Of a stretch of 64,000 nt of DNA, positions 6,485 to 57,822 are shown one piece after another (positions within the stretch are counted from its first letter, which is position 1; every line of letters begins with the position of its first letter). Source of the DNA: an uncultured Mailhella sp. (GTDB taxonomy: Bacteria > Desulfobacterota > Desulfovibrionia > Desulfovibrionales > Desulfovibrionaceae). The translations under genes and the position numbers were made by a program. Under the pieces are notes generated by a model. That model saw nothing but the letters and a program-made list of their open reading frames with translations. It was not told where the DNA came from and ran no database searches. The DNA lies in NCBI RefSeq assembly GCF_944324995.1, contig NZ_CALUYL010000008.1:1-64000 (forward strand), read 5' to 3'.

Positions 6485-6529
6485 TTCCTTTTCCCGAAGC
6501 GCTGGTGTCCGGCGGGAAAAGGAGAATCC

Positions 6530-8949: not shown

Positions 8950-9015
8950 CGTGAACGCCGGAAGCGGCCGGTTTTGACGGCTTCCGGCAACGACAAACGA
9001 CGCAGAGGTGCGACC

Positions 9016-13440: not shown

Positions 13441-13544
13441 GGGCGTTCCCTTGAGTGTTGAAGGTTGGCGGAACAGGGCGGCGTCGGCAAAAGGGGACGT
13501 GCGCGGCAGGCGGCAGGGCCGGGCGAATGGCGGAATGCGGAACG

Positions 13545-13973: not shown

Positions 13974-13985
13974 GGAGCCTTCCTT

Positions 13986-15074: not shown

Positions 15075-15094
15075 GGGAGCTCTCTCCAGGCAGC

Positions 15095-15123
15095 AGGCTA
15101 ACGGCAAGGCGGAATTTCGTCAA
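15095..15123 (-). promoter_or_regulatory. Probable sigma-70 promoter of lacI copy 1
   Basis: On the minus strand, TTGACG (15118-15123) and TAGCCT (15095-15100) are separated by 17 bases. The same two boxes and much of the spacer (CTTGCCGT) recur upstream of lacI copy 2 at 19637-19665. The conservation supports a real promoter and possibly an overlapping operator. Confidence 0.6.
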
Positions 15124-15400: not shown

Positions 15401-16732
15401 ATGAGCGCGCCCAGCAAAAAAGAAATCCGCAAGGTGGTACTGGCCAGCCTTCTCGGAGCCACCATTGAATGGTACGACTTCTTCCTGTACGGCGTTGTCG
15501 CGGGCATCGTCTTCAACAAGCTGTACTTCCCCACGGAAGATCCCTTCATCGGCACGCTTCTCGCCTACAGCACCTTTGCCATCGGCTATCTGGCCCGTCC
15601 CTTCGGCGGATTCGTCTTCGGCCACTTCGGCGACAGGCTGGGCCGCAAGAGCATGCTCGTGCTCACCATGCTCATCATGGGTCTTGCCACCATCGGCATC
15701 GGTCTTGTGCCCACCTACGCGCAGATAGGCATTGCCGCGCCCATCATTCTGCAGACGTTCCGTCTCTGCCAGGGCCTCGGCCTCGGCGGCGAATGGGGCG
15801 GCGCCGTGCTCATGACCTATGAATACGCCAGCAAGAAGGAACGCGCCTTCTACGCCAGCATCCCGCAGATGGGTCTGGCCACGGGCCTGTGCCTGTCTTC
15901 CGGCGTGGTGGCCCTGCTCTCCTGGGGCCTCACCGACGAACAGTTCCTCGCCTGGGGCTGGAGACTGGCCTTCCTCGTGAGCGTGCTGCTGGTCTGCGTG
16001 GCTCTCTACGTCCGCATGCACATCCTTGAAACCCCCGACTTCCAGAAGGCTCAGGAAAAGGCCCATCAGGACAAGGAAAAGAAGACCCTGCCCATCGTCA
16101 AGGTGTGCAGGGAACATCCCGGCAACATCGCTCTCGGCATCGGCGCCCGCTGGATCGACGGCGTGTTCTTCAACGTGCTGGCCGTGTTCGTCATCACCTA
16201 TCTCGTGCAGTACGTGAACGTGCCGCGCACCGAAGCCCTCTCCATGGTCATGATCTCCGCTCTGGTCATGTGCCCCTTCATCCTCATTGCCGGACGTCTT
16301 GCCGACCGCTACGGCCGCGGCCTGGTGTACGGCGTGGCCAGCATTCTCTGCGGCCTGTCCATCTTCCCCTCCTTCTGGCTCATGGGCGCGAGCGAAGGCA
16401 ATCTGTTCATGATCGGCATCGCCATCATCGTTCCCATCAGCGTGTTCTACGCCGGCGTGTTCGGTCCTGAAGCCGCCCTGTTCTCCGACCTCTTCCCCGC
16501 CGACGTGCGCTACACCGGCATTTCCATCGTGTATCAGTTCCCCGGCTTCCTCGTGGCCGGCATCGTGCCCGGTCTGTGCACCTACTTCATCAAGGTTGCC
16601 GACGGCGATCCCATCTACGTGTGCCTCTACACCATGCTGGCTGCGGCCACGAGCGGCATTTCGGCCTTCATCGTGCAGCGCAAGCACAACGCTGCGGTCC
16701 GCCGCCTCGGCGACGACGTGGAGCACGTCTAG
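15401..16732 (+). CDS. MFS transporter, metabolite:H+ symporter (MHS) type
   Basis: A 443-residue inner-membrane carrier with 12 predicted segments. MHS-type features are the N-terminal GATIEWYDFFLYG segment, GHFGDRLGRKSMLV in the first cytoplasmic loop (about 75-88), RLCQGLGLGGEWGGAVLM around 122, and a second DRYGRG loop. Members carry citrate, shikimate, alpha-ketoglutarate or betaines with protons. The start has a CAGGAG ribosome binding site. It is divergent from a LacI regulator and followed by a phosphodiesterase. Confidence 0.9.
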   Translation: MSAPSKKEIRKVVLASLLGATIEWYDFFLYGVVAGIVFNKLYFPTEDPFIGTLLAYSTFAIGYLARPFGGFVFGHFGDRLGRKSMLVLTMLIMGLATIGIGLVPTYAQIGIAAPIILQTFRLCQGLGLGGEWGGAVLMTYEYASKKERAFYASIPQMGLATGLCLSSGVVALLSWGLTDEQFLAWGWRLAFLVSVLLVCVALYVRMHILETPDFQKAQEKAHQDKEKKTLPIVKVCREHPGNIALGIGARWIDGVFFNVLAVFVITYLVQYVNVPRTEALSMVMISALVMCPFILIAGRLADRYGRGLVYGVASILCGLSIFPSFWLMGASEGNLFMIGIAIIVPISVFYAGVFGPEAALFSDLFPADVRYTGISIVYQFPGFLVAGIVPGLCTYFIKVADGDPIYVCLYTMLAAATSGISAFIVQRKHNAAVRRLGDDVEHV

Positions 16733-17929: not shown

Positions 17930-18541
17930 TCAGCGGCAGAGCTTGTTTTCCGTGGCGGTGTTCCAGGGGCGGCAGTGACCGAGATCGCAGGCTTTTTTCA
18001 AATCGGCGCAGGCGTCGCCGTTGCGCCCGTCGAGAAAGGCTCCCGCAGAGCGGTACACGTAGATGAGCGGCTCGTTGGGATTGATTTTTTCCGCGTAGGC
18101 GAAGTCGCGCTGCGCGCCTTCGGGCTGATGCTGCTTCAGGCACACCAGACCGCGCGTGGCGTAGGCTTCCGCCGTGGGAGAAAGACGGATGGCCCGCGTG
18201 GCGTCGTCGAAGGCTTCGTTGAAGTAGCCGAGATCGCTCAGGGCCAGGCTGCGCATGAGGTAGGGCGCGGGATCCAGCGGATCGGCGTCCACGGCTTTGT
18301 CGAGCAGAGCGGCGGCGCGTTCCGGATTCGTGCATTCGCCGGAAGGAGTCCAGTATTCCATGGCCTGCGAAAGATAGGTCTGCGCTTCCGGCGACACGCC
18401 GAAGGTCGGCTTGCGGTCGGGAGATTTTTTGGCTGTTGCGGGGGGCGGCGTGCCGTCGTCGTCGCCGAGGAAGGGCAGAGACGACATGCTGCAGCCGGAG
18501 AGCAGCGCGAGGCAAAGAACGCACAGAGCGAGATTCTTCAT
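17930..18541 (-). CDS. TPR-containing lipoprotein
   Basis: A 203-residue protein with a lipoprotein signal peptide and a lipobox ending at Cys17 (LLSGC). A Pro/Lys-rich linker is followed by about three tetratricopeptide-like helical pairs (roughly residues 65-170), for example DPLDPAPYLMRSLALSDLG. Two late cysteines (ACDLGHC) could form a disulfide. It starts in a 4-base overlap with the upstream LacI gene, so the two are co-translated. The role is unknown; such lipoproteins usually scaffold envelope complexes. Confidence 0.8.
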   Translation of the reverse strand: MKNLALCVLCLALLSGCSMSSLPFLGDDDGTPPPATAKKSPDRKPTFGVSPEAQTYLSQAMEYWTPSGECTNPERAAALLDKAVDADPLDPAPYLMRSLALSDLGYFNEAFDDATRAIRLSPTAEAYATRGLVCLKQHQPEGAQRDFAYAEKINPNEPLIYVYRSAGAFLDGRNGDACADLKKACDLGHCRPWNTATENKLCR

Positions 18542-19617
18542 GATTTCTCCTGCAGAGACTGCCGGGCCGGAGCCGTGGAACGGCGCTCCAGCAGATGATG
18601 GGTGTATTCCATGCGGGTGAGGTCGCTGACGGCGTCGCCGCCGCAGATGCGCTCGTAGAGTATGTCGAAGGCGCTGCGGGCTCTGGCCTGCGTCTGCTGT
18701 TCCACGGTGGTGAGTCCCACGCGCGAAATGCGGGAGGAGGACAGATTGTTGAATCCGCACACGCTGTAGTCTTCGGGCACGCGGAAGCCCTTGTCCGCAA
18801 TGGCGTCGAGCACGCCGTAGGCGATGAAGTCGTTCACGGCCACGAAGCCGGAAATGCGGCTTTTCTTTTTCAGGCATTCCGCGGCGAGCTCGTAGCCTAT
18901 GCGCTGTTCCAGATCGATGCTGTTGAGTTCCTCGTGCGGAGTGTAGTCTCTGGTGAACACCTGAACGGAACAGCCGGGGTTTTCGGCATAGACGTCCTTC
19001 ACGCCCTGCAGCCTGCGCAGACGTATGGCGTTGGTGGCGTTCATCATGGCGGAAATGAAGGCGATGTGCCTGTGGCCGAGGCTCAGCATGTGGCGCGCGA
19101 TGAGCACGCCGGCGCTGTAGTTGTCGAGCTCCACGGTGTCGATTTTGGGGCTGGAGTTCTTGTCGCCCATGACCACGACGGGAATCTTGCCGTTGAGTTT
19201 TTCCACCTTGCGCAGGCTCTGGGGGGTGAGCGTGAAGATCATGCCCGCGGCGCCCAGCGCCAGGGCCATGTTCATGACTTCCTCTTCCTTTTTGGCCTCG
19301 CGGTAGGTGGTGAAGATGAGCGTGGAAAAGCTGCGTTCCTCGGCGGCCTGCTGAATGGCCTGCACCAGCCCGGAATAATAGGCGTTGGCGATGTTCGGCG
19401 TGACGATGAACACCACGTTTCTTCCCGGCAGGCGGCCTTTGGCGCGCCGCGAGGGCGCGCGGTAGCCGAGTTCCTTGGCGGCCTGACGCACCTTCTGCAC
19501 CGTTTCCGGGGAAAAGGACACGTCGGCCCGGGCGTTGAGGATCATGGAAACGGAGCTCAGCGACACGCCCGCGTTGCGGCTCACGTCTTCCAGCGTCACT
19601 TTTTTCTTGGCATTCAC
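18538..19617 (-). CDS. LacI-family transcriptional regulator (copy 2)
   Basis: A 359-residue paralogue of the LacI protein at 13986-15074, alignable over its full length. The start is taken as GTG at 19617: it follows GGAGAACCG, and VNAKKKVTLEDV then aligns with the MTTKKRITLEDV start of copy 1. HTH residues are 6-26 (GVSLSSVSMIL), followed by the sensor domain. It is co-translated with the TPR lipoprotein. Its targets are unknown; the shared promoter sequence suggests that the two paralogues may cross-regulate each other. Confidence 0.9.
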   Translation of the reverse strand: MNAKKKVTLEDVSRNAGVSLSSVSMILNARADVSFSPETVQKVRQAAKELGYRAPSRRAKGRLPGRNVVFIVTPNIANAYYSGLVQAIQQAAEERSFSTLIFTTYREAKKEEEVMNMALALGAAGMIFTLTPQSLRKVEKLNGKIPVVVMGDKNSSPKIDTVELDNYSAGVLIARHMLSLGHRHIAFISAMMNATNAIRLRRLQGVKDVYAENPGCSVQVFTRDYTPHEELNSIDLEQRIGYELAAECLKKKSRISGFVAVNDFIAYGVLDAIADKGFRVPEDYSVCGFNNLSSSRISRVGLTTVEQQTQARARSAFDILYERICGGDAVSDLTRMEYTHHLLERRSTAPARQSLQEKS

Positions 19618-19665: not shown

Positions 19666-19695
19666 ATGGCCGAGAGCGTCTTTTGGAGAAAAAAG

Positions 19696-19726
19696 AAGGG
19701 CCGGGATGACGGAATTCCCGGCCCTT
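19696..19726 (-). terminator. Terminator of the TRAP/flavoprotein operon
   Basis: An 11-bp GC-rich stem (AAGGGCCGGGA with TCCCGGCCCTT) is followed on the minus strand by CTTTTTT. It sits 38 bases after the last flavoprotein gene and ends the sigma-54 operon. Confidence 0.88.
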
Positions 19727-19764
19727 TCGGGGATGAACGCGGGGGAGCAGGCTCCCCCGTGCCA

Positions 19765-21450
19765 TCAATGTTTCATGTTGCGCCACGAGGTGACGACGGA
19801 GCCGTCGTCCTGCTTCGTGACGTCGAGCATCTTGTCGGCAAGAAGCGGATTGGTGAAGGTGTAGTCCGCACGCTTGTGATTGCCGCGGGTTTCCTTGCGC
19901 TCCAGCGCGGAGCGCATGATGCATTCGGCGCAGTCGAACAGGTCGAGCACTTCCGCCGCGCGCATGAGGGTGTGGGAGCAGGAGGCCTTCATGCTGGCGT
20001 TCGTTTCCTCGCGCAGCTGGGCCAGGTAGCCGAGACCGGCCTTGAGCAGCGTTTCGGAACGCACGTTGTAGGGGCCCACGTTGGCGTAGTCGCTCATGAT
20101 CTGGGTGAGGGCGATGTTGGCTTCCTGCCATTCCGCGCCGATTTCTCTGTCCATGAAGGAGGAGAGCAGTTCCATCTTGGCCTTGATGGCGGGATTCGCG
20201 GCGAGATCCGCACTGCCCCTGGCCGAAGCGGCGTCGGCCGCGGCGGCGTGACCGGCTCTCCAGCCCATCCAGGCGGCGAGGCCGAGGCCGCAGCCCGCGT
20301 TGCCCACCATGTCGCCCGCGGCGTAGAGGCCGGGCACGGTGGTCTGTCCGTTCTTGTCCACGTCGAGGCCGCGTCCGTGCAGGATGGGCTCGAAGCGGGT
20401 GAATTCCACGGCGTGCTTCGCCGGATCAATGCCCTTGGCGTCCATGTAGGCGATGAGGGCGGAGAGGCCTTCGTCGAACATGGCCTTGCGCATGTAGGCC
20501 AGAGTTTCGGGCGTGTTTTCCGAGCAGTCGAGGTAGGCGGGGCCGCGGCCGTTGTGCATGACGTCGAGGAAGGCGGAATTCCAGATGTCGGAGGTGACGT
20601 CGCCGTATTCAGGATCGGGCTTGGTCACGAAGGGGCCGAGCGGCTTGCCGTCGGGGTAGCGGTACACGCCTATCCACGTGGCCTTGCCTGCGCGCTGCAG
20701 GTACTTGGTGCCGGCGTGGGTGTAGGGGATTTCCATGTTCACCATGCTCGCGCCGATGCGCCAGCCGAGGGCCTGACCGCCGGCGTTGTTGGGGCAGTGG
20801 GCGGTGTTGAACAGATAGTTGGGCGTGGAGCCGTTGACGTAGAGCCGATGAGTGAGGCCCGTGGACAGAATGACGCAGGGAGCGCTCACCAGCACGAACG
20901 AGGGTTCGGGCTTGCCGGCGTCGATGGCGAGCGCGCCGCAGACGCGGCCGTTTTCCTTGGCGAGCTCCACCACGGGATGGTGATTGAGCACGGTGACGCC
21001 GTGTTTCTTCATCTGTTCGGCGAGCACGGCCTTCTGCTTGCGGCCGTCGAATTTCAGGAAGGCGCGGGGCTTGCCGGGCAGGGCGTGTCCCTGGAAGTTC
21101 CAGCGGCCGAGGGGACGCATGTTGATGCCCCATTCTTCCCACTTCTTCACGATGTCGAAGCTCTCCAGAAGGTGCAGGCGCATGAGTTCCACGTCCTTGG
21201 CCTGTCCCACGAGGCTGTTCATGAGGGCGGTGAGCACGGGTTCCACGTCGTCGCCGTGGACTTCGGGAATGTAGCAGCTGAAATGATCGTTGCCCGTGGC
21301 CCCGGAGCCGGAACGCTTCACATGGCACTTTTCCAGCACGACCACGCGCTTGGCTCCGCCTTCGGATGCCGCAATGGCGGCCATGGCCCCGCCGATACCG
21401 CCGCCAACGATGACGACATCGGCTTCAATAGTCTTGGAAACAGGAATCAT
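19765..21450 (-). CDS. FAD-dependent oxidoreductase, APS reductase alpha/fumarate reductase-like (module A, second)
   Basis: A 561-residue flavoprotein with an N-terminal Rossmann dinucleotide site (VVIVGGGIGGAMAA, residues 12-25). KRSGSGATGNDHF, near residue 45, resembles the AprA flavin region rather than the His-linked FAD motif of succinate dehydrogenase. Conserved blocks shared with its paralogues at 21759 and 55820 are WGINMRPLG, HAGTKYLQRAGKATWIGVYRYP, GRGPAYLDCS and a late GLYAAGDMVGN FAD motif. There is no signal peptide or heme motif, so it is cytoplasmic. It overlaps its ferredoxin gene by 4 bases, implying a fixed complex like AprBA. The substrate is unknown. Confidence 0.85.
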   Translation of the reverse strand: MIPVSKTIEADVVIVGGGIGGAMAAIAASEGGAKRVVVLEKCHVKRSGSGATGNDHFSCYIPEVHGDDVEPVLTALMNSLVGQAKDVELMRLHLLESFDIVKKWEEWGINMRPLGRWNFQGHALPGKPRAFLKFDGRKQKAVLAEQMKKHGVTVLNHHPVVELAKENGRVCGALAIDAGKPEPSFVLVSAPCVILSTGLTHRLYVNGSTPNYLFNTAHCPNNAGGQALGWRIGASMVNMEIPYTHAGTKYLQRAGKATWIGVYRYPDGKPLGPFVTKPDPEYGDVTSDIWNSAFLDVMHNGRGPAYLDCSENTPETLAYMRKAMFDEGLSALIAYMDAKGIDPAKHAVEFTRFEPILHGRGLDVDKNGQTTVPGLYAAGDMVGNAGCGLGLAAWMGWRAGHAAAADAASARGSADLAANPAIKAKMELLSSFMDREIGAEWQEANIALTQIMSDYANVGPYNVRSETLLKAGLGYLAQLREETNASMKASCSHTLMRAAEVLDLFDCAECIMRSALERKETRGNHKRADYTFTNPLLADKMLDVTKQDDGSVVTSWRNMKH

Positions 21451-21698
21451 GACTTCGCCTCCTGGGGTTTAAGGGAGTCGGCATCGACGTGCAGCAGCGT
21501 GAACGCCAGAGGAATACGGAGCGTGATGGCGCCCTTGGGACAGTCGAGCACGCAGGAGTCGCAGTGCCAGCATTCGTCCGGGAATTTGACCTGAGGCATT
21601 TTGTCCTTGGAGCGGTCGAACACGAAGATATTGGAGTTGCAGATATCGGCGCAGGTTCCGCAACCTACGCATTTACTGGGATCAATAACGGGAGGCAT
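21447..21698 (-). CDS. 2x[4Fe-4S] ferredoxin, AprB-like partner (module A, second)
   Basis: An 83-residue electron carrier with two CxxCxxCxxxC cluster motifs: Cys10/13/16/20 and Cys43/46/49/53. The second lies in DECWHCDSCVLDC, the pattern seen in the beta subunit of APS reductase. The C-terminal tail (LLHVDADSL) is shared with the other two ferredoxins of this type. It is encoded directly upstream of, and overlapping, its flavoprotein, so it most likely passes electrons to or from the FAD. It has a GGAGAAA ribosome binding site. Confidence 0.92.
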   Translation of the reverse strand: MPPVIDPSKCVGCGTCADICNSNIFVFDRSKDKMPQVKFPDECWHCDSCVLDCPKGAITLRIPLAFTLLHVDADSLKPQEAKS

Positions 21699-21758
21699 GA
21701 CGTTTCTCCTTTGATGTGCGGGGAGCGCCGCCCCTCGGGGCGGCGCTGCAACAGGGGG

Positions 21759-23441
21759 CTAATTCCAGCACTGACGCCATTCGGTGCGGACGGTGCCGTT
21801 TTCCTGCCAGACGTCGAGGAACTTGTCGGAGAGCAGGGGGTTGGTGAAGGTGTAGTCGGAGCGCATGTGCATGCCGCGGGTTTCCTTGCGTTCGAGGGCG
21901 GCGTGCATGATGATTTCGCCGTTGTCCATGAGGTCGAGGGTTTCGATGGCTCTCATGAGGCTGTGCGCGTCCGGCACGGAGATTTCGTTGATCGCGTTCT
22001 TGCGCAGATCGGCCATGTACTTCAGACCGGCGGTGAGCAGCGTGGCCGAACGCAGACGATGCGGACCCGCAGCGGCGTAGGAATCCATGATCTGCTGCAC
22101 GGCGAGGTTGGCTTCCTTCCAGGCCGCGCCGCTTTCACGTTCCATGAAGCTGCTGTAGAGCTGAGCGCGTTCCGCAACCCAGGGCGAAGTTTCGGCATTC
22201 TTGAGCTCGCAGGAGGCGGCGGAAGCGCCGGCGTGACCGCCCGCAATCCAGCCGTACACGGCCGCGCCAGCGATGTCGGCGCGGAAGTTGCCCACCATGT
22301 CGCCCGCGGCGTAGAGGCCGGGAACGGAGGTCTGGCCGTCGATGTCGATTTCCAGGCCGCGGCCGATGATGTGCGGCTCATACTGCATGAATTCCACGGC
22401 GTGCTTGGAAACGTCGAGGCCGGTGCGGTCCATGTAGTCCACCAGCGTGGTAAGTCCTTCGCTGATCATGCCCTCGCGCATGAAGGCGAGGTCTTCGGGC
22501 TTGGTCTGGGTGCAGTCGATGTAGGCGGGGCCGCTGCCGTTCAGAAGCACGTCGGTGTAGGCGGAGTTCCACACGTCGCAGGTGATGTCGCCCACATAGC
22601 GGGTGGCTCTGTCCACGAAGGGGCCGAGCAGCTTGCCGTTGGGATAGCGGTACACGCCTATCCAGGTGGACTTGCCCGCGCGGGCGAAGAACTTGGGACC
22701 GGCGTGACGGTTGGGCATTTCCATGTTCACCATCTTCGCGCCGATGCGCCAGGCCTGCGCCTGAGCGGCGCCCGTGCAGGCGGGGCAGAAGGCCGTGTTG
22801 AAGGGCCAGCCCGGCGAGCCCGCGGCCGGATACAGACGGTTGGCCGTACCGGTGGAGAGCACCACCTTCTTGGCGCGGATGACGGTGAAGCTGGGCGTAT
22901 CCTTGGAAACGTCCAGAGCAAGCGCGCCAGCAATTTCGCCGTCGATCTTGATGAGGTCGATGACGGGCATGTGGTTGACGATTTCCACGCCTTCCTTTTT
23001 GGCCTGTCTGGTGAGCACCTGCTTCTGATTGTGACCGTCGTACTTGAGCCAGATGCGCGGACGGCCGGGATAGGCGTGCCCCATGAATTCGTAGTCGTCG
23101 CCGAAGGGCTTCATGTTGATGCCCCATTCCAGCCAGCGGTCCACCATGTGGATGCTCTCTTCCAGGAAGCGCAGGGAGAGCTTTTCATCGTGGTAGGCGC
23201 CCACGAGGCTCTGACGCAGTTCCTTGAGAATGACGCGGATGTCGCTGCCGTGGGCCTTGGGGTAATAGCAGGCAAAGTGGTCGTTGCCCGTGGCGCCGGA
23301 ACCGGAGCGGCGGGTGTCGGCCTTTTCGGCCACCATGGTCTTGGCTCCTGCGCGGGCGGCGGAAATGGCCGCGCACAGACCGCCTATACCGCCGCCGACA
23401 ACCAGGACATCAGTGGAAAGGGGAGGATTGAATGCAAGCAT
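21759..23441 (-). CDS. FAD-dependent oxidoreductase, APS reductase alpha/fumarate reductase-like (module A, first)
   Basis: A 560-residue paralogue of the flavoprotein at 19765. It has Rossmann site VLVVGGGIGGLCAA, RRSGSGATGNDHFACYYP, EWGINMKPFGD, RIWLKYDGHNQKQVL, a GPKFFARAGKSTWIGVYRYP block and GLYAAGDMVGNF. It is encoded 9 bases after its own ferredoxin. Two differing flavoprotein/ferredoxin pairs in one operon suggest either a heteromeric enzyme or two successive redox steps on one substrate. The residue pairs H/R in the shared blocks are candidate substrate ligands. Confidence 0.85.
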   Translation of the reverse strand: MLAFNPPLSTDVLVVGGGIGGLCAAISAARAGAKTMVAEKADTRRSGSGATGNDHFACYYPKAHGSDIRVILKELRQSLVGAYHDEKLSLRFLEESIHMVDRWLEWGINMKPFGDDYEFMGHAYPGRPRIWLKYDGHNQKQVLTRQAKKEGVEIVNHMPVIDLIKIDGEIAGALALDVSKDTPSFTVIRAKKVVLSTGTANRLYPAAGSPGWPFNTAFCPACTGAAQAQAWRIGAKMVNMEMPNRHAGPKFFARAGKSTWIGVYRYPNGKLLGPFVDRATRYVGDITCDVWNSAYTDVLLNGSGPAYIDCTQTKPEDLAFMREGMISEGLTTLVDYMDRTGLDVSKHAVEFMQYEPHIIGRGLEIDIDGQTSVPGLYAAGDMVGNFRADIAGAAVYGWIAGGHAGASAASCELKNAETSPWVAERAQLYSSFMERESGAAWKEANLAVQQIMDSYAAAGPHRLRSATLLTAGLKYMADLRKNAINEISVPDAHSLMRAIETLDLMDNGEIIMHAALERKETRGMHMRSDYTFTNPLLSDKFLDVWQENGTVRTEWRQCWN

Positions 23442-23450
23442 GGCTGACTC

Positions 23451-23681
23451 CTAGGCGTGCAGGGTGTCCGCATCGACGTGCAGCACCATGTAATTGAGGG
23501 GAAGGCGCAGTTCCACGGCATGAGCCGGGCAGTCGAGAACGCAGGCGTTGCAGTGCCAGCATTCTTCCGGGTAGGCCACCCGGGGCGTCTGCCCTTTTTC
23601 ATGCTTGAAGATGTTCATGGGGCAGATGGTTGCGCACATGCCGCAGTGAGTGCAGCGGTCGGCATGGATGATGGGAGGCAT
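23451..23681 (-). CDS. 2x[4Fe-4S] ferredoxin, AprB-like partner (module A, first)
   Basis: A 76-residue ferredoxin with clusters at Cys10/13/16/20 and Cys41/44/47/51 (EECWHCNACVLDC). It has the same MPPIIHADRC-type start and VDADTL end as its paralogues. It lies 24 bases after the TRAP permease stop and 9 bases before its flavoprotein, with an AAGGAG ribosome binding site. The predicted role is electron transfer to the adjacent FAD enzyme. Confidence 0.92.
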   Translation of the reverse strand: MPPIIHADRCTHCGMCATICPMNIFKHEKGQTPRVAYPEECWHCNACVLDCPAHAVELRLPLNYMVLHVDADTLHA

Positions 23682-23705: not shown

Positions 23706-25613
23706 CTACATGAGGCTGGGAATGAGGAGGGAAATCGAAGGGAAGGCGATGATGAGCGCAAGGCAGAGGAACAGGGCCAGCACAAAGGGCGTGGCCGCCC
23801 GGAAGATGAGTCCGAGGGGCACGTCCGCCACGCCTTTCATGACGAACAGGTTGATGCCGAACGGCGGCGTTATGGACGCCATGTTGTTCAGGATGGCGAA
23901 GATCACGCCGAACCAGACCAGATCCCAGTGGAAGCTCTTGGCGATGGGCAGGAAGATGGGCACCGTGATGAGGATGAGGGGAATGGCGGGCAGAAAGCAG
24001 CCGAGCACGCACATGACGATGACGATGACGCACATGACCACGATGGGAGCCACGTCGAGGGAGGCGATGGAGTTGGCGAGCATGGTGGGCATGCGGGACA
24101 TGGTCATGAAGTAGCCGAGGATGGTGGCGCCGCCGAGCAGAGTGAAGCACATGGCGGTGAAGCGGCTGGATTCTTCCATGGACTTGCGGAAGTTGGACCA
24201 CTTCAGCCTGCCCATGACGAGGCCGAGAATAAGGGTGCCCGCCGCGCCGATGGCGCCGCCTTCGGTGGCGGTGAACAGGCCGCCGTAGATGCCGCCGATG
24301 ACGAGAATGAACAGCAGCACGATGGGCAGACCGCCCTTGAGGGAGGAGACGCGTTCGGCCAGAGGAGCCTTTTCGCGGCGGGGAGCCAGATCGGGATTCT
24401 TGAGCACCATGAGCCATACGATGCCCATGAAGCAGACCATGCAGAGCAGACCGGGCAGGATGCCGGCCATGAACAGGTCGCCGATGGACTGTTCGGCCAG
24501 CACGCCGTAGAGAATGAAGGTGGTGGAAGGCGGGATGAGCGAACCGATGGTGCCCGAGCAGGAAAGGGTGCCGAGGGCGAGCTTGTCGTCGTAGCGGGCC
24601 TTGCGCATTTCGGGCAGGGCGATGGCCGACATGGCGATGGTGCCGGAGAGCGTGTCGCCCACCACGGCGCCGAAGAGGGTGCAGGCGGCCACGGTGCCGA
24701 TGGCGAGGCCGCCGCGCATGTGGCCTATCCAGGCCGTGCCGAGTCGGTAGAGATCTTCGCCGAAGCGGCTGTAGTAGCAGGCGTAGCCCATGAGCATGAA
24801 GGACATGAGGGGCGCCCAGGTGTAGTTGGAAACGGTGTTGAACCAGGAGTTGCCGAACATGTTGACGCCGGCCAGCTGTCCGCGCAGCACGCAGACGAAG
24901 AGCAGGCCCGTGGCCATGAGGGCGAAGCCGATGGGCATGCCGAGGAAGAAGAGGGTGAACAGCACGACGATGCCCACGATGCCCACGTGCAGGCCGCTCA
25001 GGCCCATGATGCGGTGGGTGCCGAAGTACCAGGCCACGAGCAGGGGAATGACGGCGAGGGCCACGCCGATGAGGATTTTCGTACTTCCGGCCTGACGCAG
25101 CATTTCCAGCAGAGAAACGAGGGTGTCGCGCACGAGGGCGAGGAAGAGCAGGCACACGCCGGCCACGCCGAGGAAGATGAAGGGCGCGTAGGGAATGCCG
25201 AGAATGGGGGTCGCCTTCTGGTTGGTCATGCCGTAGCGGGTCATGGCGTAGATGCACATGGCTATGGTGAACATGGACCATACCGTGGTGGCGAATTCCA
25301 GCGCGGCCTTGGTGTCGGGCTGGAGCTTGTGGGTGATGATGTCCATGTTGATGTGCGTTTTCGTGTACTGGGCGTAGCCGGTGTACGAGAACACGATCAT
25401 GGCCATCATGAGGCCGGTGATTTCCACGGTGCCGTCGAGCGGCCTGCCGAAGAAGTAGCGGAGAAAGACGTCCGCAAAGGTGATGACCACCATGAGGAAG
25501 AAAAAGAAGATACCGACGTTGCCGCACCAGCGCAGCGGCTTTTCAATGAATGCGCTGGAGGCGCATATCTTTTCGAGCAGGGGGTATTCGCGGGGCATCG
25601 TTGACGTTGACAT
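23706..25613 (-). CDS. TRAP transporter fused permease (DctQ-DctM)
   Basis: A 635-residue inner-membrane protein. Residues ~1-180 form the small DctQ-type four-helix subunit (ITFADVFLRYFFGRPLDGTVEI), fused to a large DctM-type permease from about residue 195. The DctM part has family motifs such as LFFLGMPIGFAL, FGAVVGDTLSGTIAMSAIALPEM and SGTIGSLIPPSTTFILYG. It uses the sodium gradient to import an organic acid delivered by DctP. A 198-base gap separates it from dctP; GC-rich dyads there could reduce permease expression relative to the binding protein. Confidence 0.93.
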   Translation of the reverse strand: MSTSTMPREYPLLEKICASSAFIEKPLRWCGNVGIFFFFLMVVITFADVFLRYFFGRPLDGTVEITGLMMAMIVFSYTGYAQYTKTHINMDIITHKLQPDTKAALEFATTVWSMFTIAMCIYAMTRYGMTNQKATPILGIPYAPFIFLGVAGVCLLFLALVRDTLVSLLEMLRQAGSTKILIGVALAVIPLLVAWYFGTHRIMGLSGLHVGIVGIVVLFTLFFLGMPIGFALMATGLLFVCVLRGQLAGVNMFGNSWFNTVSNYTWAPLMSFMLMGYACYYSRFGEDLYRLGTAWIGHMRGGLAIGTVAACTLFGAVVGDTLSGTIAMSAIALPEMRKARYDDKLALGTLSCSGTIGSLIPPSTTFILYGVLAEQSIGDLFMAGILPGLLCMVCFMGIVWLMVLKNPDLAPRREKAPLAERVSSLKGGLPIVLLFILVIGGIYGGLFTATEGGAIGAAGTLILGLVMGRLKWSNFRKSMEESSRFTAMCFTLLGGATILGYFMTMSRMPTMLANSIASLDVAPIVVMCVIVIVMCVLGCFLPAIPLILITVPIFLPIAKSFHWDLVWFGVIFAILNNMASITPPFGINLFVMKGVADVPLGLIFRAATPFVLALFLCLALIIAFPSISLLIPSLM

Positions 25614-25811: not shown

Positions 25812-26897
25812 TTACTTTACGGTTTCCAGATATCCCTTGTAGATGGGGGAATCCGCCCACTTGATGCCGAGCTTGCCTTCCAGTTCGTAGAAGGTCTTCT
25901 TGACGTCGGCGCCGGGGAGGCCTTCCTTGTTGAGGGACTCGAACCATTCATCGACCGGAGGCTGCATGAGTTCGCGGGCCTTGGCGTAGTCGGCGTCGGA
26001 GAACAGGATGAATTCCTTGCCGCCCATGTCGGCTCTCCACTTCTTGGTGGCTTCCACGTCCACGCTTTCCCAGTAGTTGGCGAAGGCCTTGTCGGCAAAG
26101 TCGCCGGAAACCTCGTCGAGCACCTTGCGCAGATCTTCGGGCAGGGAGTCGTACACGTCCTGATTGATGACGCAGTAGAACAGCGTGTTCTGCACGGCGA
26201 GCTCGGTGACGTACTTCAGGCAGTCGCCGTAGCGGCGGGAGACCAGAAGTTCGGGAGACATGGTGGTGCCTTCAATGACGCCCTGCTCCATGGCGGAGTA
26301 GATGTCGGAAAGAGGCAGGGACACCACGGTGACGCCGAGCTTCTTCAGGCGTTCGGCGATCATGGCGCTGTTGGCGTTGATCTTGAGGCCCTTGAGGTCT
26401 TCGAGCGTGCGGATGGGCTTGGTGGTGGTGCCGATGACGAGCGAGCCGCTCGCGTGGGTGAAGAGCAGCTTCACGCCGTCGAGTTCCTTGAGGGCCTGGG
26501 GATACTTGGCGTACAGGCCCTTGACCAGGGCGGTGCCGTCTTCGAGATAGAGTTCGGGGGAGGAGATGGAAAGGATGCCTTCGTGGAAGGGGAACTGGCC
26601 GGAATTGGCTTCGTAGGCGCATTCGGTGATGTCCGCAATGCCGGACTTGACGGATTCAAAGGCTTCGGCGCGGGGGCTGAGGGCTTCGGCGAAGTAGGGT
26701 TCGATCTTCAGTCTGCCCTGACTGCGCTTTTCCACTTCCTGCACCCAGGCCTGCAGGGGGCCCTGCCAGCGGGTGTGGATGGGCGGAATGGGAAGGTTGA
26801 GGCTCAGCACGTATTCGGGAGCCGCCTGCGCGGATGCGGGAATCATCATGCCCAGAGCCAGCAGGGCGGAACAGAGAAACTTGCCAGCGTTGTTCAT
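25812..26897 (-). CDS. TRAP transporter substrate-binding protein (DctP)
   Basis: A 361-residue periplasmic binding protein with a Sec signal peptide cleaved around AQA (residues 23-25). Family features are the ALSPRAEAFESVKSGIADI segment, KGLKINANSA near residue 170 and SDIYSAMEQGVIEGT near 195. The Arg that binds the substrate carboxylate is expected in the central region. It is the first gene of the operon, with a GGAGG ribosome binding site, and lies downstream of a sigma-54 promoter. The ligand is unknown. Confidence 0.93.
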   Translation of the reverse strand: MNNAGKFLCSALLALGMMIPASAQAAPEYVLSLNLPIPPIHTRWQGPLQAWVQEVEKRSQGRLKIEPYFAEALSPRAEAFESVKSGIADITECAYEANSGQFPFHEGILSISSPELYLEDGTALVKGLYAKYPQALKELDGVKLLFTHASGSLVIGTTTKPIRTLEDLKGLKINANSAMIAERLKKLGVTVVSLPLSDIYSAMEQGVIEGTTMSPELLVSRRYGDCLKYVTELAVQNTLFYCVINQDVYDSLPEDLRKVLDEVSGDFADKAFANYWESVDVEATKKWRADMGGKEFILFSDADYAKARELMQPPVDEWFESLNKEGLPGADVKKTFYELEGKLGIKWADSPIYKGYLETVK

Positions 26898-27084: not shown

Positions 27085-27131
27085 ATAAACGCTAAGTGAA
27101 ATTGACATATCCCCCGGAGGGGAGGAACAAT

Positions 27132-28700
27132 ATGGGCGATTCGGGATTTTATTCGGAAACGGCGGCAAAATCCTGTCTGGTCATGTACCGCATGGGCGGC
27201 CTCAGACACGTGCTTCTCTACCTGCACGACTTTCTGCGGGGCAGGCTGCCCGTGGTGCGCATCAACACGATCTATTGCGACAAGGACGCCCGGTACATCG
27301 TCAACATGGCCGACACCAGCACGGTGAGCGTTTCCAACAAGGCCGCCGGCTCCGCGAGGACAAGGCCGCTGGTCATGAGCGAGATGATCGCTTCGCCCAT
27401 CATTGTGGGCGATCTTTCTCCCTATCAGCACGATCCCGAAGTGCTCAGCAATCCGCAGTGGACCGACATGCCCTATCTGCATCACGTTTCCATGCTGCGG
27501 CTGCCGCTCTTTGCCAACAGCACGAGCGTGTTTCTCATCAACTTCTGGTCGGACGAAAAGGGAGCCTTCACGCAGAGCGATCTGCGGGCCTTGTCGCGTC
27601 TTCTGAAGCCGCTTGCCGAAGAGCTGCGCATCAATCTGTCGGACATGAAGATGCACGGCGCGCGGCCGCCGGTGAAGAGCGAGGTCACGGGCATGGACAA
27701 GCTCAGTCTCAGCCCCGGACTGGTGCGCGTGCGGCAGATTGTGGAAAAGGTGGCCCGCAGCGACGCCACCGTGCTGATTCTGGGCGAAACCGGCTCCGGC
27801 AAGGAAGCGGTGGCCGACGCCATTCAGCAGACCTCGGCGCGGCGGAGCGAGCCGTTCATCAAGGTGAACTGCGGCGCCATTCCGGAAGAGCTGGTGGACA
27901 GCGAGCTGTTCGGGCATGAAAAAGGATCGTTCACCGGCGCGTCGGGAACCAAGGCGGGCTACTTTGAAATGGCGGACGGCGGCACGCTGTTTCTGGATGA
28001 AATAGGCGACATGTCGCTGTCGTCGCAGGTGCGTCTTCTGCGCGTGCTCGACACGGGGCAGGTCCGGCGCGTGGGCGCGGCCCGGGAAATTCCGGTGAAC
28101 GTGCGCATCATTGCCGCCACGCACGACGATCTGCCGCGCAAGGTGGTGGAGGGGCGGTTCCGCCGGGATCTGTGGTATCGGCTGTCGGTGCTGCCCATTG
28201 CCGTGCCGCCGCTGCGGGAGCGGCGCGACGACATTCCCATTCTTGTGGAACACTTCATGCAGATGAAGGCGCACAGGCTTGGTCTGCCCTACCTGCCGCA
28301 TGTGCCGGAAGAGGAAATGCGCGCGCTGCTGCGCTACGGCTGGCCGGGCAACGTGCGCGAGCTGGAACACACCGTGGAGCGGGCGCTGATTAAATTCAGC
28401 CTGGAATCCGCGGCGAAGAGCGTGCATTTTGAGATCATTTCCCTGCCCGATCCCCTGTCGGAGCAGCAGGGCGGCTCAGGACGGACGCTGCGCCGCCGGG
28501 ACGAGTGGCCCACGCTCCGCGAAATGGAGGAACGCTACATCCGCGAGGTGCTGGAACATTGCGGCGGCAAGCTGACGGGCACGGATTCGGCCACGAGCCT
28601 GCTGGACATCCACTACACCACGCTGCGTTCGCGCATGCGTCACATGGGGCTTCTCGATGACGACGAAGGCTCCGTTTTCACGGGGAAAACGGAGCCCTGA
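27132..28700 (+). CDS. Sigma-54-dependent transcriptional activator (enhancer-binding protein)
   Basis: A 522-residue bacterial enhancer-binding protein. Residues ~1-190 form a GAF-like sensor region. The AAA+ domain has Walker A GETGSGKE (218-225), the sigma-54 contact loop GSFTGA (265-270; serine replaces the usual alanine) and Walker B with D289-E290. A Fis-type HTH lies at the C-terminus (LLDIHYTTLRSRMRHMG). The start at 27132 is chosen by a GGAGG at 27121-27125. It is divergent from, and surely controls, the dctP-led operon, presumably in response to a small ligand bound by the sensor domain. Confidence 0.93.
   Translation: MGDSGFYSETAAKSCLVMYRMGGLRHVLLYLHDFLRGRLPVVRINTIYCDKDARYIVNMADTSTVSVSNKAAGSARTRPLVMSEMIASPIIVGDLSPYQHDPEVLSNPQWTDMPYLHHVSMLRLPLFANSTSVFLINFWSDEKGAFTQSDLRALSRLLKPLAEELRINLSDMKMHGARPPVKSEVTGMDKLSLSPGLVRVRQIVEKVARSDATVLILGETGSGKEAVADAIQQTSARRSEPFIKVNCGAIPEELVDSELFGHEKGSFTGASGTKAGYFEMADGGTLFLDEIGDMSLSSQVRLLRVLDTGQVRRVGAAREIPVNVRIIAATHDDLPRKVVEGRFRRDLWYRLSVLPIAVPPLRERRDDIPILVEHFMQMKAHRLGLPYLPHVPEEEMRALLRYGWPGNVRELEHTVERALIKFSLESAAKSVHFEIISLPDPLSEQQGGSGRTLRRRDEWPTLREMEERYIREVLEHCGGKLTGTDSATSLLDIHYTTLRSRMRHMGLLDDDEGSVFTGKTEP
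28668..28696. terminator. Hairpin at the end of the activator gene
   Basis: An 11-bp stem (GGCTCCGTTTT / AAAACGGAGCC) overlaps the last codons of the activator gene. It stands between convergent genes but has no clear T-tract, so terminator function is only probable. Confidence 0.5.
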
Positions 28701-47414: not shown

Positions 47415-47425
47415 CCTTTGACCAG

Positions 47426-47466
47426 CAGGGCTGTCGGTAACGCTTTCGGCTGAACCGATGGCCCTG
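47426..47466 (+). terminator. Terminator after the adhesin gene
   Basis: A 13-bp stem with two G-U pairs (CAGGGCTGTCGGT / ACCGATGGCCCTG) is followed by TTTTCATCTCTTTTT, starting 12 bases after the stop codon. Confidence 0.88.
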
Positions 47467-47556
47467 TTTTCATCTCTTTTTCCCGCCACGAGCGGTTGGC
47501 CTTTAAAAAAGAAAATGCGATGCAGCGGCACAGCGCCATCCGGCCAAAATTGAGTG

Positions 47557-54211: not shown

Positions 54212-55594
54212 TTACATGATGCCTACGAAGTTCCACCACGGAATGGCCACCAGAGCGAGCAGCACGCCGCAGATCAGGGTTCGCGCGGCGAGAGCGGGAA
54301 TGACGTGGGAGAGCGTGACGCGTCCGGTGATGAAGATATAGAGGAAGTACACGGCTTCATAGGGCAGGATGTACTGATCGACGCCGTACTGGAAGGCGTA
54401 GAAGAGCGGCAGCGGATTCATGTTGAGGGCCTGACCGAGTTCGCCGATGGCGGGGGTGAAGGCGGCGGTGGCGGCAAGGGGCGTCAGCAGGAAGTTGACG
54501 ACCACGCCGGAGAGGTAGGCGATGATGACCGACATGCTCTCTCCCCAGCCCTGAAGCACGGGCAGAATCTGCTGCACGGCCCAGGCGTTGAAGCCCACGG
54601 CTCCGCCCACGAAACCGATGGACATGCAGCCGGTGATGAAGATGAGGAACATGATTTCCAGCTTGCCGATGCCTTCATTGGGCAGAATGTTGATGCCGGG
54701 CATGTAGCAGATCATGGCCAGCACGGCGAAGACGAACACGGGGTCCACGCCGGTCCAGGGCTGAATCATGAAGGCGAGCACCATGCCGAGCACCAGCACG
54801 AGGAGAATTTTTTCCTTGGTGCTGATGGGGCCGAGTTCTCTGCTGCAGTTTTCAATGAAGGCGCGGGCGTTTTCCATGGAGGTGAGCTGTTCCTTGCCCT
54901 TCACCAGCCAGACGACGCCCATGGACGCCATGGTGTAGATGACGGAGAACAGGGAGCCGTGCCAGGCGTACTGCCAGAAGTCCACGGTGGTGCCGTCCTT
55001 GAAGAGCATGGTGAAGGCCCAGATGAAGCTTTCGGAGGTGTGCAGGAACAGAAACTGCGGCGCGGCCGCGGCCATGAAGGCCATGAGAATGATGGCCGAG
55101 GACATGCGCGATTTGTGATCGAGCTTCAGGGTGTCCACGATGCCGGAGGCAATGGCGCAGAGCACGACCATGCGGGCCAGAATGGAAGGCAGCACCAGGG
55201 CCAGCGCCAGGCCGCCGATGAAGAAGCCCCACACAAGGCCCATGAAGCTGCCGCCCGCAAGGGAGAGGCAGCTCAGCGCCAGGCGTCTGGCGAGCCCAGT
55301 TTTGTCCATGGCTTCGCCGATGACCACGGCGGCAAAGGAAATCCAGGGCAGCACCGTGGCCCACGGGCCGAAAATGACTTCCATGGGAGCCACGTTGCCG
55401 AGCACGTAGCCGAAGGTGAGCAGCGCGGCCACGCCGATGGCCGGAAACACGTTGAAGGCCCAGGCCAGCACGGCCATGCTGGTCATGGCCATGAAGAGCG
55501 GCGCTTTCGGCGAAATGTCGGCGGGCGCGGCGAAATAGACGATGAAGGGCAGAATGAGGGTCAGAGGCCAGCGGAGCATGGGCAGAACTTTCAT
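54212..55594 (-). CDS. SLC13/DASS-type anion transporter (module B)
   Basis: A 460-residue inner-membrane protein with about 12 segments and DASS-like layout: two related halves, with FNVFPAIGVAALL early and NFLLTPLAATAAFTPAIGELGQ late, the latter probably a substrate/sodium loop. It is more distant from the carriers at 7468 and 59814 than those are from each other. The start at 55594 (MKVLPML) has a GGAGG 6 bases upstream. It is the last gene of a ferredoxin/flavoprotein/transporter operon and presumably imports the flavoprotein's substrate. Confidence 0.8.
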   Translation of the reverse strand: MKVLPMLRWPLTLILPFIVYFAAPADISPKAPLFMAMTSMAVLAWAFNVFPAIGVAALLTFGYVLGNVAPMEVIFGPWATVLPWISFAAVVIGEAMDKTGLARRLALSCLSLAGGSFMGLVWGFFIGGLALALVLPSILARMVVLCAIASGIVDTLKLDHKSRMSSAIILMAFMAAAAPQFLFLHTSESFIWAFTMLFKDGTTVDFWQYAWHGSLFSVIYTMASMGVVWLVKGKEQLTSMENARAFIENCSRELGPISTKEKILLVLVLGMVLAFMIQPWTGVDPVFVFAVLAMICYMPGINILPNEGIGKLEIMFLIFITGCMSIGFVGGAVGFNAWAVQQILPVLQGWGESMSVIIAYLSGVVVNFLLTPLAATAAFTPAIGELGQALNMNPLPLFYAFQYGVDQYILPYEAVYFLYIFITGRVTLSHVIPALAARTLICGVLLALVAIPWWNFVGIM

Positions 55595-55819: not shown

Positions 55820-57490
55820 TCAGATGAGGCGGTCGCGCCAGGCGGTTTTCACTTCATCGCCTTCCTTCCATACGCGCAGGAACTTGTCGCGCAGGAGCGG
55901 GTTGGTGAAGGTGTAGTCGGAGCGGATGTGACGGCCGCGGCTTTCCTTGCGTTCCCTGGCGGAGATCATGAGGGCCTGACCGAGATCGAGCAGGTTCACC
56001 ACTTCGGCGGCGCGCATGAGTTCGTGGGCGTCGGTGGCGTACATCTGCGTTTCTATCTTCTTGCGCAGGTCGCCGAGATACTTGATGCCCGCGGTGAGCA
56101 TGGTGTCGGAGCGCACGCGGTGCGGACCGCAGTCGGCGTACTCGGTCATGATCTGCTGCAGGGCGAAGTTGGCTTCCTGCCACGAAGCGCCCACCTTGCG
56201 TTCGTAAATGGCGCTGTAGAACGCCATGCGTTCCTCGGCGTTGTCCGGCGTGCCTTCGGCAAGGGCGAGGGTCTGGTAGTCCGCGGCGTGATGGCCGGCA
56301 ATCCAGCCGTACACGGCCGCAGCGCCGATGTCGCCGCTGATGTTGCCCATCATGTCGCCGGCGGCGAAGAGTCCGCGCACGTTGCTCTCGCCGTTGATGT
56401 CGATTTCTATGCCGTTGGTGACGAGGTTGGCTTCATACTGGCCGAATTCCACGGCGTGCTTTCCGGGATCGATGCCTTCCTTGTCCATGTAGTCCAGAAG
56501 CGCGGTGAGGCCTTCGCACTTCATGGCCCAGCGCATGTGTTCGAGATCTTCCTTGCTCGCGCCGGAGCAGTCCATGTAGGCGGGGCCGCGGCCGCTCAGC
56601 TTGAGATCGGTGAAGGCCGAGGACCACACGTCGCTCGTCATGTCGCCCGTTTCCACGTTGGGCTTCGTGATGAACGGGCCGACGGGACGCCCGTCGGGGT
56701 AGCGGTACACGCCTATCCAGGTGGCCTTGCCGCAGCGGGCGAGGAAGCGGGGCCCGGCGTGGCGGTAGGTCTTTTCCATGTTCACGAGATAGGTGCCGAT
56801 GCGCCAGGCCTGCGCAATGGAGTCGCCGGTGCCGGAGGGGCACATGTTGGTGTTGAACATCTGGCTCGGCGTGGGATCGGTGGTGAACAGGCGGCTCACG
56901 TAGCCGGTGGCGGCCACCACGGCCTTGGATTTCACCATGATGAAGGAAGGTTCGTCGCCGGACACGTCGAGAGCCAGCACGCCGGTCACGCCGTCGGCGT
57001 TGCGGAACATTTCCAGCACGGGCGCGTGATTGAGAATCTTCACGCCGCGCTTTTTCGCCTGTTCGGTGAGCACCTTTTTCTGATTGTGGCCGTCGTACTT
57101 GAGGAAGATGCGCGGACGGCCGGGATAGGCGTGTCCTTCAAAGTGATAGTCGCCCGTGGGCTTCATGTTGATGCCCCAGTCGTTCCACATGTTCACGATT
57201 TTGGGGCTGGTTTCCAGAAAGCGCATGACGAGCGGGGTGTCGTTGCTGGTGGCGTTCTGGCTGTCCATGAATTCGTTGTACACCACGCTGATGTCGCCGT
57301 GCTTTTCGGGAATCCAGCACAGGAAGTGATCGTTGCCCGTGGCGCCTGCGCCGCTGCGCTTCGTGTTGGCCTTGTCCAGAAGAACCACGCTTGCGCCCTT
57401 GTCCGCCGCCGCGATGGCGGCCATAAGACCCGCTATGCCGCCGCCGATGACGGCCACATCGGCTTCATGCTGTTCTTTAAGAGGAATCAT
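55820..57490 (-). CDS. FAD-dependent oxidoreductase, APS reductase alpha/fumarate reductase-like (module B)
   Basis: A 556-residue paralogue of the two flavoproteins at 19765 and 21759. It has Rossmann site VAVIGGGIAGLMAA, KRSGAGATGNDHFLCWIPEKHGD, DWGINMKPTGDYHFEGHAYPGRPRIF, a GPRFLARCGKATWIGVYRYP block, GRGPAYMDCS and GLFAAGDMMGN. The start at 57490 (MIPLKEQ) follows GGAGG and matches the paralogues. There is no export signal. It lies 77 bases after its ferredoxin and 225 bases before the transporter gene. It is likely a cytoplasmic ferredoxin-linked reductase or dehydrogenase. Confidence 0.86.
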   Translation of the reverse strand: MIPLKEQHEADVAVIGGGIAGLMAAIAAADKGASVVLLDKANTKRSGAGATGNDHFLCWIPEKHGDISVVYNEFMDSQNATSNDTPLVMRFLETSPKIVNMWNDWGINMKPTGDYHFEGHAYPGRPRIFLKYDGHNQKKVLTEQAKKRGVKILNHAPVLEMFRNADGVTGVLALDVSGDEPSFIMVKSKAVVAATGYVSRLFTTDPTPSQMFNTNMCPSGTGDSIAQAWRIGTYLVNMEKTYRHAGPRFLARCGKATWIGVYRYPDGRPVGPFITKPNVETGDMTSDVWSSAFTDLKLSGRGPAYMDCSGASKEDLEHMRWAMKCEGLTALLDYMDKEGIDPGKHAVEFGQYEANLVTNGIEIDINGESNVRGLFAAGDMMGNISGDIGAAAVYGWIAGHHAADYQTLALAEGTPDNAEERMAFYSAIYERKVGASWQEANFALQQIMTEYADCGPHRVRSDTMLTAGIKYLGDLRKKIETQMYATDAHELMRAAEVVNLLDLGQALMISARERKESRGRHIRSDYTFTNPLLRDKFLRVWKEGDEVKTAWRDRLI

Positions 57491-57567
57491 GGAGTACCTC
57501 CAGAGAAAATGTTTTGAGTGGGAGAGAGAAGATCCCGAAGGGAACACGGCTGCCGAAAGGCGCGTTT

Positions 57568-57822
57568 TCAGCGCACGGGCAGATCTTTGGGCTTCAGGGT
57601 GTCGGCATCCACGTACAGGAGCATGTGCGTGAGCGGCAGACGCAGTTCAATGGCGTGGGCCCGGCAGTCCAGCACGCAGGCGTTGCAGTGCCAGCACTCG
57701 TAGGGGCGCTTGACTTCGGGCATCTTGTCCTTGCCTCTGTTGAAACTGAACACCTGCAGGGGGCACACGTCGGCGCATACGCCGCAGCCAAGGCATTTTT
57801 CTCTGTCGATTACCGGAGGCAT
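57568..57822 (-). CDS. 2x[4Fe-4S] ferredoxin, AprB-like partner (module B)
   Basis: An 84-residue ferredoxin with clusters at Cys10/13/16/20 and Cys43/46/49/53 (YECWHCNACVLDC). The start at 57822 (MPPVID) is chosen because it follows AGGAGA and aligns with the other two ferredoxins of this type. It shares the LLYVDADTLKP tail. It is the first gene of the module B operon. Confidence 0.92.
   Translation of the reverse strand: MPPVIDREKCLGCGVCADVCPLQVFSFNRGKDKMPEVKRPYECWHCNACVLDCRAHAIELRLPLTHMLLYVDADTLKPKDLPVR

Follow-up and report, generated by a model that had tools for sequence, protein, structure and literature searches.

What are two pairs of ferredoxin and flavoprotein genes, similar to the subunits of adenosine 5'-phosphosulfate (APS) reductase, doing behind a tripartite ATP-independent periplasmic (TRAP) transporter? 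The question is raised by an operon on contig NZ_CALUYL010000008.1 (RefSeq assembly GCF_944324995.1) of an uncultured Mailhella sp. of the Desulfovibrionaceae. The operon lies on the minus strand of the stretch analysed here, positions 1 to 64,000 of the contig, which we call the window. The module is real and conserved, comes from a separate clade of the AprBA type and has its own sigma-54 signals. We tentatively propose, with slightly less than even confidence, that the operon would encode a TRAP-type importer and two ferredoxin-fed cytoplasmic reductases of this clade for an imported organic acid, with a C=C bond as the most likely target.

Two paralogous ferredoxin/flavoprotein pairs in one operon

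Open reading frames (ORFs) and Pfam matches give the gene order DctP, fused DctQM, Fd1, Fp1, Fd2, Fp2 and terminator, all on the minus strand. A sequence-only reading of this DNA had described two paralogous ferredoxin/flavoprotein pairs behind a TRAP transporter and closed by one terminator, and all four ORFs were found where it had placed them. Fd1 (23451..23681, 76 residues, with an ECWHC motif) and Fd2 (21447..21698, 83 residues) are ferredoxin subunits with two [4Fe-4S] clusters, matching the Pfam 4Fe-4S dicluster family. Fp1 (21759..23441, 560 residues) and Fp2 (19765..21450, 561 residues) are FAD flavoproteins with FAD_binding_2 and Succ_DH_flav_C matches; the AlphaFold2 model of Fp2 has a pLDDT of 93.9. 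The reading frames of Fd2 and Fp2 share 4 bases, and the two flavoproteins, like the two ferredoxins, are 54% identical to each other. The importer genes upstream encode the substrate-binding protein DctP (25812..26897; Pfam DctP 122 bits; best solved relative 4n6d, E 1.1e-34) and the fused permease DctQM (23706..25613; Pfam DctQ and DctM, and TIGR00786 over its cut-off).

Several features go beyond the sequence-only reading: a hairpin between the pairs, a divergent sigma-54 activator with a promoter, and further copies of the family in the genome, one of them inside the window. The hairpin, between Fp1 and Fd2 (21699..21758, minus strand), is GC-rich and has no U-run (-27 kcal/mol, z -2.27, equalled by 4 of 200 shuffled sequences); it might cause the two pairs to be made in different amounts. 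A rho-independent terminator of two hairpins, with a U-run after the second, closes the operon (19688..19764, minus strand; -40.8 kcal/mol, z -3.95, none of 200 shuffles as good). Metagenome-assembled genomes (MAGs) under the titles Mailhella or Desulfovibrionaceae contain relatives at 87-92% identity, six comparisons giving dN/dS values of 0.06-0.13, and in another genome of the same species (G193) two copies adjoin with similar spacing on its single contig. The low dN/dS in relatives and the adjacent copies in G193 show that the pairs are not a chance arrangement.

The flavoproteins belong to a clade of their own

The AprBA-like two-subunit architecture noted earlier, an FAD alpha subunit with a beta subunit of two [4Fe-4S] clusters, holds up, and the closest solved relative of the flavoprotein fold, with Fp2 as query in a Foldseek search covering part of the existing structures, is the 3'-phosphoadenosine 5'-phosphosulfate (PAPS) reductase 8a8o at 24% identity. 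Scores with family models are far below the cut-offs. The two flavoproteins score 76.3 and 72.5 bits with the AprA model TIGR02061 (cut-off 641.75) and the two ferredoxins 33.2 and 52.4 bits with the AprB model TIGR02060 (cut-off 135.65). The best NCBIfam model for the flavoproteins is NF006131 (PRK08275), at 187.3 and 198.4 bits against a cut-off of 587, yet PRK08275-type proteins occupy a separate branch of the tree. Matches to the SdhA and TcuA models are weak. A search for relatives found 1056 at E <= 1e-60 among 7997 candidates scored; the 120 matches listed have generic names or none, and no function is given to this arrangement in the paper titles and abstract openings surveyed.

In the tree, Fp1 and Fp2 fall within a clade of 94 rows (branch length 1.44; Shimodaira-Hasegawa-like approximate likelihood ratio test, SH-aLRT, 100) that is separate from AprA, from PRK08275-type proteins and from the fumarate, succinate and aspartate enzymes; the tree was built quickly with IQ-TREE, SH-aLRT being its sole support measure, and it carries a warning of long branches that meet. 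Residue counts given here refer to this 94-row tree clade, which differs from the motif-defined sets (85, 91 or 94 members, depending on the analysis). The His of GSHSG and the Arg of ARFKD, which together with the Arg of ENRF we take to be the catalytic residues of AprA, are each kept in none of the 94 members, and the ENRF Arg is kept in one, which is neither Fp1 nor Fp2. The column of FrdA H232 is His in 73 of 94 members, and T244, E245, R287, H355 and R390 are kept in none (E. coli FrdA numbering, in an alignment that is uncertain in gapped stretches). The sequence-only reading had named a characterised clade with identical active-site residues as the placement that would count against it; Fp1 and Fp2 instead fall in a separate clade, in which the His and one Arg of AprA and five of the six FrdA residues checked are absent throughout.

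The clade has hallmarks of its own: H56 and H122 in 94 of 94 members, D55 in 93, R253 in 92, W259 in 90 and K256 in 89. D55 and H56 sit in a motif used to find most of the loci; the search patterns included GNDHF or WGINM, so that the conservation of these two motifs partly reflects how the loci were found. GNDH and clade membership do not coincide fully, four carriers lying outside the clade (L047_624 and three distant paralogues from the same genome as the window) and four clade members being without it.

Ferredoxin and flavoprotein as probable subunits of one enzyme

Counted by motif, since the gene maps miss some small ORFs, a ferredoxin ORF adjoins 75 of the 85 motif-defined flavoproteins, upstream in 62 and downstream only in 13. 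Distances among ferredoxins and among flavoproteins are correlated (0.829 over 68 pairs, with none of 2000 shuffles as high), shared ancestry also contributing to this value, and the nearest partner agrees between the two in 51 of 68 pairs. The earlier suggestion of a ferredoxin-linked enzyme gains support from this co-variation, and each ferredoxin and its flavoprotein are likely to be one enzyme. CWxC is present in 67 of the 68 ferredoxins; in the PAPS reductase of Methanothermococcus thermolithotrophicus (MtPAPSR, 8a8o), Trp42 is proposed, in passages of PMC10322725, to take part in electron transfer.

Sister copies in the genome

A search of the 2.9-Mb genome (98% complete) with Fp2 finds 15 places; apart from Fp2 itself, five of them are at 51-55% identity and the remaining nine at 25-30%. 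The six close flavoproteins stand at five loci, each with a two-cluster ferredoxin (one recognised by eye) and a TRAP, TTT or DASS transporter. A divergent sigma-54 activator, in each case backed by a Pfam match, stands at four of the five. Sequence comparison places a third pair within the window (55820..57822, minus strand; flavoprotein 55820-57490, ferredoxin 57568-57822), beside a DASS-type (Na_sulph_symp) transporter (54212..55594, minus strand). Elsewhere in the genome, L017 has a close copy with a fused TRAP permease, and L018 has one with TctC, TctA and two enzymes of the Old Yellow Enzyme (OYE) type (7645-9567) and another with a DASS transporter (13089-15106). The best model for one OYE-type enzyme of L018 is BaiCD, at 433 bits against a cut-off of 825.

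The region 59814-63305 of the window encodes a more distant flavoprotein (61316-63016), a 4Fe-4S ferredoxin belonging to it (63033-63305) and a transporter of the CitMHS type. Next to this distant pair, L020 (2-3340) contains a Fer4_20/Pyr_redox protein (2-1546) and another flavoprotein. The set might be a variant of the same scheme that is linked to NAD(P)H.

Importers are exchanged around the same enzyme

Gene maps of 77 related loci were drawn with a codon-usage gene caller, which missed some small ORFs, and neighbours were grouped into sequence clusters, whose names were assigned by eye and whose examples were run against Pfam. By the gap rule, 53 of the 77 loci have a DASS, TRAP or TTT transporter in the same operon (DASS 33, TRAP 12, TTT 5, two kinds 3) and 24 have none. 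The exchange extends to close orthologues. The nearest named records of Fp2, among which very near ones may be missing, come from one Desulfovibrionaceae MAG and three Mailhella MAGs (L021-L024) and are 88-90% identical, with dN/dS of 0.06-0.13. Fp2 stands with a TRAP transporter in the window, L021 and L023, with a DASS transporter in L024, and with TctC, TctA (TTT) and two OYE-type enzymes in L022; L025, a 76% relative, again has TRAP. In L022 the LacI gene behind the Fp2 operon is 90.2% identical to that behind Fp2 in the window, so that different importers occupy what seems to be one and the same site. Provided that the enzyme has kept its substrate, that substrate would be an organic anion that all three importers can carry. 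Of the earlier idea that the enzyme acts on a TRAP-imported acid, the link to an imported organic anion is supported, whereas TRAP is not the defining partner, because close Fp2 orthologues also sit with DASS or TTT.

OYE-type enzymes occur near 8 of the 77 loci, and dehydratase- or isomerase-like neighbours comprise SDH_alpha (5 loci), octopine-DH/ApbA (7), MmgE/PrpD (3) and Amdase (3); amidohydrolases occur near 5.

A cassette of ferredoxin, flavoprotein, SDH_alpha and octopine-DH genes with a DASS or TRAP transporter is conserved in Lachnospiraceae, including Hungatella hathewayi, and in one Mailhella (L095, L080, L083, L089 and L062). Such a cassette could form a route from keto acid through hydroxy acid and enoate to saturated acid.

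The Fp1-Fp2 tandem

The Fd1-Fp1-Fd2-Fp2 order is found again beside TRAP in L021 and L023 and beside DASS in L028, a Desulfovibrio locus. In L028 the first flavoprotein belongs to the Fp1 clade (SH-aLRT 99), and the second branches next to the Fp2 clade (SH-aLRT 90). Both kinds also occur singly, the Fp2 type in L022, L024 and L025 and Fp1-clade members in L018, L038 and L051. A heteromer of the two pairs, raised as a possibility in the sequence-only reading, is therefore not required.

Comparison of 11 Fp1-clade with 10 Fp2-clade proteins gives 21 columns that are fixed in both groups but different. Eleven of the 21 lie within 5 residues of FrdA substrate-residue columns, against 37 of 191 fixed columns overall (p 3e-4, an indicative value, the substrate-site ranges having been chosen after the list of differences was seen); the ranges rest on an earlier alignment in which the FrdA row was present and the AprA rows were empty. 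Because the differences cluster near the substrate site, Fp1 and Fp2 probably act on different substrates or bonds.

Probable sigma-54 control

A gene for a sigma-54-dependent AAA+ activator lies divergent to the operon (27096..28700, plus strand, start possibly at 27183; Pfam Sigma54_activat 229 bits, with GSFTGA in the translation). Upstream of dctP, on the minus strand, TGGCACAATTATTGCT (27005-26990) is one substitution away from the sigma-54 promoter consensus used and is the sole match on either strand of the window with at most two substitutions and intact GG and GC. The sequence thus holds both marks of a sigma-54-controlled operon, an AAA+ activator and a -24/-12 promoter.

Other loci follow the same pattern. 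The four loci of this genome that have an activator each have a promoter match with at most two substitutions, and the locus without one shows no match even when three are allowed. Among related loci, matches occur in 11 of 15 activator-divergent gaps and in 1 of 53 operons without a locus activator (L057). These counts omit 4 of 19 activator genes that have no divergent neighbour and comprise the 53 of 60 activator-less loci with enough upstream sequence; the gap lengths searched differ between the two groups.

Host physiology and distribution

The absence of sulfate-activation genes, noted earlier for the neighbourhood, extends to the whole genome, in which neither TIGR00339 (Sat) nor TIGR02039 (CysD) finds an ATP sulfurylase match, both being found in control genomes. 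None of 27 AprA matches in the genome is over the cut-off, nor is any in the 19 genomes of the genus, one of which has a match below it; AprA over cut-off occurs in 52 of 61 genomes of the order sample and 138 of 199 of the family sample. DsrA is present in the genome of this gut bacterium, a member of a sulfate-reducing family.

Of the 19 genomes of the genus, 16 carry the flavoprotein family, one of them with as many as 13 matches; the Desulfovibrionaceae sample has 22 carriers among 199 genomes, 15 of them from this genus; the family-sample scans score at most 6-7 candidates per genome, and copy numbers come from the genus search. One of the 22 carriers, G208, has AprA over cut-off, and G065 and G248 have matches below it. 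The carrier genomes are related, so that this is the pattern of a few lineages rather than of independent events, and most AprA-lacking genomes of other genera are also without the family. Beyond the Desulfovibrionaceae it occurs in Lachnospiraceae and others, with Hungatella hathewayi DSM 13479, Catenibacillus scindens DSM 106146 and Moorella sulfitireducens SLA38 as named strains.

Five distant members contain one stop inside the match (G195:C5:21521 TAA, G180:C1:261074 TAA, G190:C11:37379 TGA, G189:C147:3359 TAA and G065:C1:486040 TAG); perhaps the match just runs past the end of the gene.

Proposed function and alternatives

In the proposed mechanism the sigma-54 activator would sense the substrate and switch the operon on, and the TRAP transporter would carry the acid into the cell. 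Low-potential electrons would enter the ferredoxin subunit and cross its two clusters to FAD, and the reduced FAD would give a hydride to the substrate, most likely at a C=C bond, yielding a saturated acid and disposing of reducing equivalents. Fp1 and Fp2 would probably differ in substrate: they might reduce two double bonds of the same molecule one after the other, or a pair of isomers. The choice of C=C reduction is an inferred step, suggested by the co-occurrence with OYE-type enzymes, the dehydratase- and isomerase-like neighbours and the ferredoxin partner.

Several observations weigh against this proposal. Arg is found in none of the 94 clade members at the column of FrdA R287, the acid of the known C=C reductases of the superfamily, so that C=C reduction would need another residue as acid. 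The window operon is itself without OYE-type or dehydratase-like genes. No adjacent ferredoxin was found for 10 of the 85 flavoproteins, four of which have less than 450 bases of upstream sequence, and the 24 of 77 loci without a DASS, TRAP or TTT gene in the operon include some at contig ends. Four of the 15 activator-divergent gaps have no promoter match (L026, L027, L037 and L050). Finally, passages of PMC10507020 describe transporters of these types in a related gut genus as putative importers of sulfolactate.

The pairs might instead be catabolic dehydrogenases, with the imported acid donating electrons that FAD takes up and the ferredoxin passes on. The FAD_binding_2 superfamily includes dehydrogenases (SdhA and TcuA being weak matches here), and either direction of electron flow would be compatible with the operon by itself. 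Against this stand the OYE-type reductases near 8 of 77 loci and the partner subunit: a low-potential two-[4Fe-4S] ferredoxin would fit electron input better than output from C-C oxidation, although the clusters of AprB span a wide potential range. We regard this alternative as unlikely. Less probable again are divergent fumarate/succinate- or tricarballylate-type enzymes for ordinary C4-C6 acids, given the scores far below the 587-bit cut-off, the separate clade and the loss of five of six FrdA residues in all 94 members; the tree and the missing substrate residues lead us to reject membership in the fumarate reductases. True APS or PAPS reductases would account for the subunit architecture and the fold, but the AprA and AprB scores far below cut-off, the separate clade, the absent catalytic residues and the lack of a Sat or CysD match in the genome make this hardly credible, and we reject that membership too.

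The pairs might also attack organosulfonates taken up by the cell, with flavin-sulfite chemistry of the APS reductase kind as one route, and feed the sulfite to Dsr; the fold, closest to PAPS reductase, would suit this. With DsrA present, AprA below cut-off and no Sat or CysD match, the genome needs another source of sulfite, and the fused-DctQM TRAP and TTT systems of Taurinivorans are putative sulfolactate importers, again in passages of PMC10507020. The His loop and ARFKD Arg of AprA are gone in all 94 clade members, however, and the ENRF Arg in 93. No sulfonate-degrading gene was recognised near the loci when the gene maps were inspected by eye, a survey made without model searches, and DctP reaches 123 bits with 4n6d but 60 bits with 8t9t, which binds isethionate. 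The range of the family also takes in Lachnospiraceae and other groups. On balance, we think sulfonates quite improbable substrates.

Reduction of an imported organic acid can be extended to the whole family, which might then serve as modular cytoplasmic organic-anion respiration: Mailhella, without sulfate respiration, would carry up to 13 copies per genome with interchangeable TRAP, DASS and TTT importers, a sigma-54 sensor would be dedicated to many of these copies, and the Fp1-Fp2 tandem would perform two successive reductions of one polyunsaturated acid or, more boldly, split C-S bonds of sulfonates. As a whole this scheme is speculative and, in our judgement, unlikely.

Comparison with known systems

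The likeness to AprBA lies in the combination of an FAD protein with a two-cluster ferredoxin; the pairs in the window differ in their separate clade, their scores below cut-off and the loss of the His loop and Arg. MtPAPSR, as passages of PMC10322725 describe it, retains the catalytic residues of APS reductase, which the window clade does not. From FrdA and SdhA the clade differs in lacking five of the six substrate residues checked, and neither an FrdB-type subunit nor membrane anchors are found among the genes of the operon. The BaiCD-like OYE reductases share operons with these enzymes at some loci, yet belong to another protein family (Oxidored_FMN and Pyr_redox). Cgr2 offers a parallel in passages of PMC5953540, being a fumarate-reductase-like flavoprotein with [4Fe-4S] that reduces C=C bonds though most of the usual residues have diverged. 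According to the same passages it differs in its predicted Tat export, in being fed by the cytochrome Cgr1 in the authors' model and in having no ferredoxin partner subunit. By analogy, the window enzymes may work like Cgr2.

If the proposal is true, a whole branch of APS/fumarate-type flavoenzymes would gain a function, and gut Desulfovibrionaceae that do not respire sulfate would have another electron outlet, with a set of acceptors that can be put to the test. Three transporter types around one enzyme offer a direct way to narrow down the substrate, and carriers with strain names make the question testable now.

Other features of the window

Directly past the terminator lies a gene for a LacI-type regulator, identified by Pfam match (18538..19617, minus strand) and possibly linked to the operon. 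It is 61% identical to a second LacI-type regulator (13986-15074), which stands between a metabolite/H+ symporter-type MFS carrier (15401-16732) and an ABC importer set. At 5789-9858, two Amidohydro_2 proteins (5789-6484 and 9016-9858), a LysR-like gene recognised by eye and a CitMHS-type transporter (7489-8949) form another putative organic-acid module. At 40761-49255, an ORF of 2217 codons is followed by a TolC-like outer membrane protein, by eye having the appearance of a secreted repeat protein with its exporter.

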